NCBI GenBank assembly: GCA_017412765.1
Contig: JAFPWN010000047.1
Location: 62,001 to 126,000 of the forward strand
Source: Oscillospiraceae bacterium
GTDB taxonomy: Bacteria > Bacillota > Clostridia > Oscillospirales > Oscillospiraceae
DNA: 64,000 bases
Reading direction: 5' to 3'
In this document: in pieces, positions 24,922-52,931 of the stretch
Layout of the letters: each line of letters begins with the position of its first letter
Numbering within the stretch: the stretch's first letter is position 1
Notes under the pieces: model-generated
The model's database searches: none
The model's input: only the letters and a program-made list of their open reading frames with translations
Told to the model about the DNA's origin: nothing
Made by a program: the position numbers and the translations under genes

Positions 24922-25132
24922 ACGGGGCGTGGCAACACGCCCCGACAATGCGTCGACAAAGTCTCCGCATCGAACATATTTTGCGCTCTCGGAGCGCAAA
25001 ATATGACGCCTGCGGGCCTGTTTGCGACGTGAAGGGGCCTCTCGGCCGGCCCCTTCACAGATCCCCGCCTCCTTTATCCAACGCTTTTTCCTTTTTGTCT
25101 ACAGTCTGACGGGGCGTGGCAACACGCCCCGA
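24922..25132 (+). mobile_element. Copy A of a 163-bp dispersed element flanked by a duplicated stem-loop
   Basis: The element core is 24946-25108 (CAATGCGTCG ... CTACAGTCTG). On both sides lies the same 24-bp stem-loop (24922-24945 and 25109-25132; stem CGGGGCGTG / CACGCCCCG, loop GCAA). Inside are a 14-bp perfect hairpin (CATATTTTGCGCTC / GAGCGCAAAATATG), a second one (GTGAAGGGGCC / GGCCCCTTCAC), and a short ATGCG/CGCAT pair at the left end. No credible coding frame exists. The same core recurs at 38162 and 52741. It separates the foldase and M24 peptidase genes. Confidence 0.85.
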
Positions 25133-37101: not shown

Positions 37102-38142
37102 ATGCAGGAAGAAAAAAACGGGAGAAAAAAGCGGATACTTACGCTTCTCGTAACTCTCGCAATCAATATCGTGATCGTCGCCGTAATTGCAGTCCTAGAA
37201 TTCGGGGACGACGTTAAAAACGCTGAGCGCATCGCGCTCTCGCAGCTCTCGCTGTGGTTTATCGCCGCCGGAGTTTTGCTCTTCGGAGTTGCTGTGCTGA
37301 CAGACTACCTCAAATATTCGCGCATGATCGAGCTGAGCGAGGGCAAAAGGCTGCCGGACGCCGCGCTCAGATGCGGTATCCTCGGCAAGTACTACGATAA
37401 CATCACCCCGTTCGGCGCGGGAGGACAGCCTTTCCAGATTATGTTCCTCAAAAAGCGCGGACTCTCGACCGGCTCCGCGAGCGCGATACCGATCGCGGCA
37501 TTCCTCTCGCAGCAGATCGCGTTCGGACTTGTCGCCATCGTCGTTTTTGCCGCCAACCGCGACGTTATCGCAGACGCTCCGGTGGTGCGCGTAAGCGCGT
37601 ACTTCGGACTTGTGATGTACATGATCCTGCCGGTTTTCATTCTGCTGTTCGCCGTTTTTCCGAAGCCCTTTGAGAAGCTTATGGTTTGCCTTACCCATCT
37701 TCTCGGAAAACTCAAACTTTTTAAGGACCCGGAGGGTGCGAAAAAGAAGGTCTACGACACGCTCGACGAGTACGTCAGCAGCATAAGAACGATAATCAAG
37801 GATCCGAAAACGGTCATAGAGCTGATGCTCTACTCAGTTTTATATCAGCTCGTTATTATGAGCATACCGTTTTGTATGCTCCGCGGCTTCGGCGGCGAAT
37901 CGAGCTGGTGGACGGCGTTCTCGCTCACGGTCTATATCTATGCCGCTATAACTATCATCCCGACGCCGGGCAACTCCGGCGCTGCGGAGGGCTCGTTTTA
38001 CGCGGTTTTCTCATCGCTCGAGGGCGGATTTCTCTTCTGGGCTATGATACTGTGGCGCGTGCTCGTCTATTACTCGTGGCTCGTGCTTGGAGTCATAGTC
38101 ATCGCTACAAGCGCAGGAACCGACAACGAAATAAAAAAATGA
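37102..38142 (+). CDS. Lysylphosphatidylglycerol synthetase/UPF0104-type membrane protein
   Basis: A 346-residue polytopic protein of the LPG_synthase_TM (flippase) family, without the soluble aminoacyl-transfer domain of MprF. Family marks are GKYYDNITPFGAGGQPFQIMFL and TIIPTPGNSGAAEGSFYAVF. Stand-alone members are thought to move or modify lipids, but the substrate is not known. The TGA stop lies inside the left copy of the hairpin that flanks repeat copy B, so the element inserted just after this gene without breaking it. Confidence 0.88.
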   Translation: MQEEKNGRKKRILTLLVTLAINIVIVAVIAVLEFGDDVKNAERIALSQLSLWFIAAGVLLFGVAVLTDYLKYSRMIELSEGKRLPDAALRCGILGKYYDNITPFGAGGQPFQIMFLKKRGLSTGSASAIPIAAFLSQQIAFGLVAIVVFAANRDVIADAPVVRVSAYFGLVMYMILPVFILLFAVFPKPFEKLMVCLTHLLGKLKLFKDPEGAKKKVYDTLDEYVSSIRTIIKDPKTVIELMLYSVLYQLVIMSIPFCMLRGFGGESSWWTAFSLTVYIYAAITIIPTPGNSGAAEGSFYAVFSSLEGGFLFWAMILWRVLVYYSWLVLGVIVIATSAGTDNEIKK

Positions 38143-38348
38143 ACGGCTCGTCCGTTCATTTCAATGCGTCGGCAAAGCCTCCGCATCGAACATATTTTGC
38201 ACTCTCGGAGCGCAAAATATGACGCCTGCGGGCCTGTGTGCGACGTGAAGGGGCCTCTCGGCCGGCCCCTTCACAGAACCCCGCCTCCTTTGTCCAACGC
38301 TTTTTCGTTTTGTCTGCAGTCTGAAATGAACGGCTCGTCCGTTCATTT
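38137..38348 (+). mobile_element. Copy B of the dispersed element with duplicated stem-loop
   Basis: Core 38162-38323 (162 bp) starts CAATGCGTCG and ends CTGCAGTCTG. The flanking 25-bp hairpin (10-bp stem AAATGAACGG / CCGTTCATTT, loop CTCGT) is repeated exactly at 38137-38161 and 38324-38348. The hairpin sequence is unrelated to those at copies A and C. The right copy has the T run of a terminator. Internal hairpins are as in copy A, with one stem change (GCACTC against GAGCGC). Confidence 0.85.
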
Positions 38349-52712: not shown

Positions 52713-52931
52713 AAAAGGACGGCTTATTTGCCGTCCTTTTCAATGCGTCGACAAAGTCTCCGCATCGAACATATTTTGCGCTCTCTGAGCGCAAAATATG
52801 ACGCCTGCGGGCGGGTGATGCGACGTGAAGGGGCCTCTCGGCCGGCCCCTTCACAGAACCCCGCCTCCTTTATCCGACGCTTTTTTCTTTTATATAGAGT
52901 CTTAAAAGGACGGCTTATTTGCCGTCCTTTT
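52713..52931 (+). mobile_element. Copy C of the dispersed element with duplicated terminator stem-loop
   Basis: Core 52741-52903 (163 bp), starting CAATGCGTCG and ending GAGTCTT. The 28-bp terminator hairpin (11-bp stem AAAAGGACGGC / GCCGTCCTTTT, loop TTATTT) is repeated exactly at 52713-52740 and 52904-52931. The right copy encodes the last codons and stop of the convergent membrane gene; the left copy ends the DegV unit. Compared with copies A and B the core has a few base changes and a different 3' tail. Confidence 0.85.

Follow-up and report, generated by a model that had tools for sequence, protein, structure and literature searches.

The window analysed here, a stretch of 64,000 nucleotides from an Oscillospiraceae draft genome, contains three copies (A, B and C) of a 162-163 bp core, each lying between two copies of a hairpin. 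The features are listed below, with no strand given for the target hairpins.

24922..24945: copy A, left target hairpin ACGGGGCGTGGCAACACGCCCCGA, 24-bp target duplication; the orthologous site in sister species G270 (L205) is empty and has one hairpin
24946..25108, + strand: copy A, 163-bp MITE core
24946..24961, + strand: copy A, 5' terminal inverted repeat CAATGCGTCGACAAAG, from sequence, to be compared with IS1182-type ends
24975..25005, + strand: copy A, internal hairpin 1, CATATTTTGCGCTC...GAGCGCAAAATATG
25029..25058, + strand: copy A, internal hairpin 2, GTGAAGGGGCC...GGCCCCTTCAC, the core's best-conserved part among MITEs from other genera
25092..25108, - strand: copy A, 3' terminal inverted repeat ..TTTGTCTACAGTCTG; 15 bases of it recur unchanged at the right end of this genome's IS1182 fragments (L111, L150)
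25109..25132: copy A, right target hairpin
38137..38161: copy B, left target hairpin AAATGAACGGCTCGTCCGTTCATTT, 25 bp; one hairpin at the empty sites in G270 (L204) and G402 (L206)
38162..38323, + strand: copy B, 162-bp MITE core
38324..38348: copy B, right target hairpin
52713..52740: copy C, left target hairpin AAAAGGACGGCTTATTTGCCGTCCTTTT, 28 bp
52741..52903, + strand: copy C, 163-bp MITE core with a diverged 3' end, ..TATATAGAGTCTT
52904..52931: copy C, right target hairpin

The three hairpins are unrelated to one another, and each duplication (24, 25 and 28 bp) is that of its own hairpin; a preliminary description of this DNA had the coordinates and duplications of all three copies exactly right. 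About 62 copies of the core were found by DNA search and pattern search in the 2.28 Mb draft genome (74 contigs) of this gut bacterium, many more than chance could account for. The whole core of copy A folds with a z-score of -6.7.

From these features, the repeat is very likely to be a non-autonomous IS1182 element (MITE). It is short and present in many copies, contains no gene, as the preliminary description had said, and has been mobile, as that description also proposed, since sister species have empty sites. Terminal inverted repeats, which the same description did not recognize as clear, are present in imperfect form: CAATGCGTCGACAAAG and, as the reverse complement of the 3' end, CAGACTGTAGACAAAA. 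They are common to the putative autonomous element at the 3' end, with identity in 15 of 15 bases; the left end of that element is absent from the assembly. A target site duplication accompanies 34 of 50 copies by a strict test, or 37 of 50 if three recognized by eye are included.

One alternative is insertion beside terminators or attC hairpins by an element resembling a group IIC intron or an integron cassette, since both of these prefer hairpin targets. This is scarcely credible here: an Rfam search of the window gave no covariance-model match at gathering score, the inverted-repeat ends match an IS1182 element, and whole-hairpin duplications are not known from either process.

The core also has an internal module around GTGAAGGGGCCTCTCGGCCGGCCCCTTCAC, between GGCGGG and CCCCGCC (24998-25079 in the window), which is common to MITEs with differing inverted-repeat ends, those of other genera included (L063-L075). 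A covariance model search did not find it in full-length IS loci, and for this reason its function in the MITEs may be an independent one; a 20-base pattern taken from it was absent from viral contigs.

Flanking hairpins and empty sites

All available flanks in the window's genome were read, and the 50 copies with both flanks readable were examined by a strict automatic test and then by eye. The automatic test found the same hairpin on both sides in 34 of the 50 (31 direct, 3 inverted), and three more below its threshold (L034, L039, L047) are clear hairpin duplications by eye. Six of the 50 (L007, L019, L022, L045, L046, L057) have a truncated or diverged second hairpin. The misfits, about seven of 50, are copies within 7-8 bp A+T-rich repeats that are not hairpin duplications (L003, L021, L028) or with no clear duplication (L009-, L013, L040, L048); the repeat at L038 is 6 bp at most. 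The preliminary description's rule that duplication length always equals hairpin length thus describes most copies, and fails for those in short A+T-rich palindromes, without duplication, or with inverted hairpins.

MITE duplications are 19-34 bp long. In 31 of the 33 direct ones the midpoint of the repeat falls within 0.5 bp of the palindrome dyad, and in 28 of the 33 pairing extends 0-1 bp outside the repeat, so the duplication ends at or beside the hairpin foot. Loop orientation is opposite between the two flanking hairpins in three MITE copies (L009+, L017, L018) and in at least two IS copies (L249, L255). These inverted duplicates are a new detail, for which one possible cause would be template switching between strands during gap repair, or a later event.

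Sister species G402 and G270 have the element too, in many copies at other positions, and relatives without a given insertion, the comparison that the preliminary description had proposed, have a single hairpin at each of four sites. Site A is empty in G270 and site B in both species, each with one hairpin and no element. The site at C69:26706 is also empty in both, and its one hairpin has the loop TTATCT, matching the left-hand hairpin in the window's genome; the right-hand hairpin there has the loop AGATAA, which means that it was inverted during or after insertion. At C69:35102, G270 has one hairpin and no element, and G402 has an independent insertion into the same hairpin in the opposite orientation, with the hairpin duplicated again. 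Between infB and rbfA the element is common to three species, and most other genomes of the genus have a hairpin there without it. Hairpin replacement of the IS1272 type is not what is seen: the hairpin is kept and duplicated, and the empty site is one hairpin.

Could the hairpins belong to the element itself, as a terminator at each end? Most copies do have one at both ends, but the hairpins vary among copies and the empty sites hold the same hairpin once, which refutes this idea and bears out the earlier view of the hairpins as target DNA.

Several further observations concern the neighborhoods of individual copies. The hairpins flanking the infB-rbfA element (L163, L164, L165) have changed in step between species: both loops read GTTT in one and ATTA in another, as would be expected if each copy were converting the other. 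At site B in G402 (L206), an unrelated palindromic insert, starting TACTAATCCCTGATTAAAAGCTT and ending with its inverted form, directly follows the hairpin. L020 (G000:C40:25938) interrupts a 21-bp palindrome, similar to the anticodon arm of a tRNA-Cys, beside a tRNA cluster; such an arm was rejected as its target, ARAGORN reporting no tRNA there. L144 (G000:C17:10224) is a palindromic left-end fragment of 27-30 bp (CAATGCGTCGACAAAGTCTCCGCATTG), alone between two differing hairpins, and L149 (G000:C57:57663) is an internal-deletion derivative of less than 100 bp with the repeat AAATAGCTT, and no hairpin, on both sides. A second dispersed repeat, GGTTGAAACAAGTTTCAACC ... AAGGAATGGTCATAAA, lies near L205, L207 and L038; the MITE has inserted into its terminal hairpin at L207 in G402 and, probably, at L038 in the window's genome.

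The candidate mover and its relatives

The preliminary description left the mover as a structure-specific nuclease or a strand-primed process; a conventional IS1182-family DDE transposase is very probably responsible. Three contigs of the window's genome (C42, C49, C39) start inside the C-terminus of such a transposase, followed by a right end, ..TATTTGTCTACAGTCTG, and then a hairpin. The right-end bases equal the MITE 3' end in 15 of 15 positions for two contigs, and the third has one substitution (TTTG). The C-terminal fragments on C42 and C49 score 25 bits, under the model cut-off, and C39 has the third fragment. What the host genome shows of this transposase is C-terminal pieces, all at contig starts; the draft assembly has no full-length IS1182 with MITE ends, and its body, being a repeat, would be expected to be missing. 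The IS left end was also not found in this genome, where additional left-end matches at contig ends are MITE copies and two small derivatives. A DDE_Tnp_1_6 match at C12:7580 was set aside as a decayed fragment.

Within the same genus, G117 (L084) has a full-length IS1182 scoring over the cut-off, with ends CAGTTTGTCAAAAAA similar to those of the MITE and the same hairpin on both sides. MITEs of other genera likewise have IS-like ends (CAGCTTGTCAAAAAAG, ..TTTTTTGACAGTCTG) and hairpin flanks.

To look more widely, seven such transposases were used as queries in one scan of named genomes, which gave 334 relatives; the best 80 were retained, and 66 of these were usable. The same hairpin lies directly outside both ends in at least 40 of these 66 (best 80 of 334; automatic test), as against 2 of 518 mismatched pairings. 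The ends of full-length relatives are CAGNYTGTCRAA, and the hairpins duplicated around them measure 18-52 bp (best 80 of 334). Copies of this kind come from Oscillospiraceae, Lachnospiraceae and other Clostridia, and in a tree hairpin duplication occurs throughout the sampled clade, the sample having been picked by similarity to such elements. Pfam models on the transposase are DDE_Tnp_1_6, DDE_Tnp_1 and DUF772, placing it in the DDE group.

Some failures of the automatic test are misses (L305, L294), and others are copies with two different hairpins. The latter could be taken to refute the rule, but that reading is weakened by the complete genome CCNA10, in which missing partner hairpins stand next to further IS copies: the right hairpin of L268 is the left hairpin of L282, and the left hairpin of L248 is, with one difference, the right hairpin of L273. 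This points to recombination between IS copies as the source of the mismatched pairs there. No duplicated hairpin was seen at the ends of IS1182-like elements that are more remote (L080, L086, L089, L091; ends such as GGGGCTGTTGACAAAG), and on their account hairpin duplication is not claimed for the whole IS1182 family.

Assignment of the MITE to this family is based on the match of its ends to IS1182 sequences in the same genome and on the like duplication of hairpins around full-length relatives. It would be mobilized in trans by an IS1182 element with matching ends, in agreement with the earlier proposal of movement in trans.

Possible route of insertion

A DDE transposase attaches the two 3' ends of its transposon to opposite strands of the target, and the spacing of the joints sets the length of the duplication. 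The best explanation overall, to which we would give a probability of about 0.9, is that the repeat is a MITE of an IS1182 transposase that joins at the 5' feet of a target hairpin, with gap repair doubling the hairpin. The transposase would choose palindromes capable of forming hairpins, mostly intrinsic terminators, and would join one transposon 3' end to each 5' foot of the extruded hairpins; each flank would then have one single-stranded hairpin arm, and gap repair copying each arm would give a full hairpin on each side and a duplication as long as the hairpin. Recognition of a cruciform, extrusion of the hairpin at the time of attack and the strand chemistry are what we infer from this pattern, and the model fits the earlier suggestion of a cruciform cut at its two hairpin bases. 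Set against it are the inverted hairpin pairs, which simple gap repair does not predict, and the copies in short A+T-rich sites or without duplicated hairpins.

In another scheme, the palindrome is read as linear duplex by its two-fold symmetry, the hairpin is never extruded, and the long stagger stems from a large transposase complex. Duplex DNA is the normal substrate of DDE transposases. We nevertheless judge linear reading distinctly improbable: the targets have no sequence in common, a fixed stagger on linear DNA is a poor fit because the duplications, at 18-52 bp, track hairpin size, and one protein spacing cannot cover that range on rigid duplex. For extruded hairpins, variable spacing of hairpin length is natural, as the two 5' feet then adjoin at the junction.

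Alternatively, single-stranded hairpins could be attacked, such as those formed by the lagging strand or within terminator R-loops, with the second strand joined after replication. Dependence on hairpins would be accounted for, and inverted copies (L009+, L017, L018, L249, L255) could arise if the two sides were copied from different strands; the mostly direct duplications, the one site with both element orientations, and the membership of the transposase in an ordinary DDE family with inverted-repeat ends all make this unlikely, and we prefer joining at the 5' feet of a cruciform.

Parts of this picture have precedents. In the IS1182 family (NCBIfam NF033551; Pfam DDE_Tnp_1_6, DUF772), some members are described, in secondary citation, as preferring palindromes (Siguier et al., 2015, as cited in PMC5678879 and PMC4923244). 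The likeness to the present elements is in transposase family, element size (autonomous copies about 1.5 kb) and this preference of some members; the window's element differs in having no gene, and the clade described here in leaving a complete second hairpin. IS1272 and TnSha1 of staphylococci, of the same family, resemble the window's MITE in that their target is a hairpin, in many cases a terminator, whatever its sequence (PMC4923244, PMC5678879), but IS1272 inserts with deletion (Furi et al., 2016; PMC4923244), replacing the hairpin without duplication, whereas the MITE keeps and duplicates it. Wan et al. (2017; PMC5678879) explained the IS1272 deletion by 3'-foot joining; cruciform 5'-foot joining with duplication of the whole stem-loop is drawn there (Fig 13) only as hypothetical pathway b, and that model does not predict the inverted duplicates seen here. 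ISCbo5 of Clostridium botulinum group III and C. novyi, also of the IS1182 family, shares with the MITE insertion at hairpins; hairpins at gene ends make up all of its insertion sites but one (PMC3098183). The ISMac2 MITEs of Methanosarcina acetivorans, as tabulated in PMC3852290, are similarly non-autonomous IS1182 derivatives with matching ends (160-169 bp); the table's columns appear to give inverted repeats of about 25 bp and direct repeats of 4 or 0 bp, and it reports no hairpin duplication. A published demonstration of whole-hairpin duplication was not found in the papers examined. ISfinder lists variable duplications for the IS1182 family.

Implications

Hairpin targeting by IS1182 elements is already known; what appears to be new is a non-autonomous member whose duplication would be set by target structure. 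Each transposase is usually assumed to give target duplications of one constant length, and here the length tracks target secondary structure, over 18-52 bp, so that hairpin-length duplications are a genomic readout of where hairpins were attacked. They also provide natural examples, with empty sites, of a pathway previously only hypothesized for IS1182 elements, and the comparisons make a good case for shape-directed transposition, with targets and MITE donors already in place to test it.

A broader proposal, which we regard as evenly balanced, is that a widespread Clostridial IS1182 clade and its MITEs recognize DNA by shape, attacking a cruciform at both 5' feet, with the duplication set by the hairpin rather than the enzyme and repair templated by the hairpin of either strand, so that the duplicates are direct and at times inverted. 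The duplications suggest that terminators can be used as safe landing sites without being broken; if the proposal is true, a shape-directed clade of transposable elements would enter terminators without destroying them.
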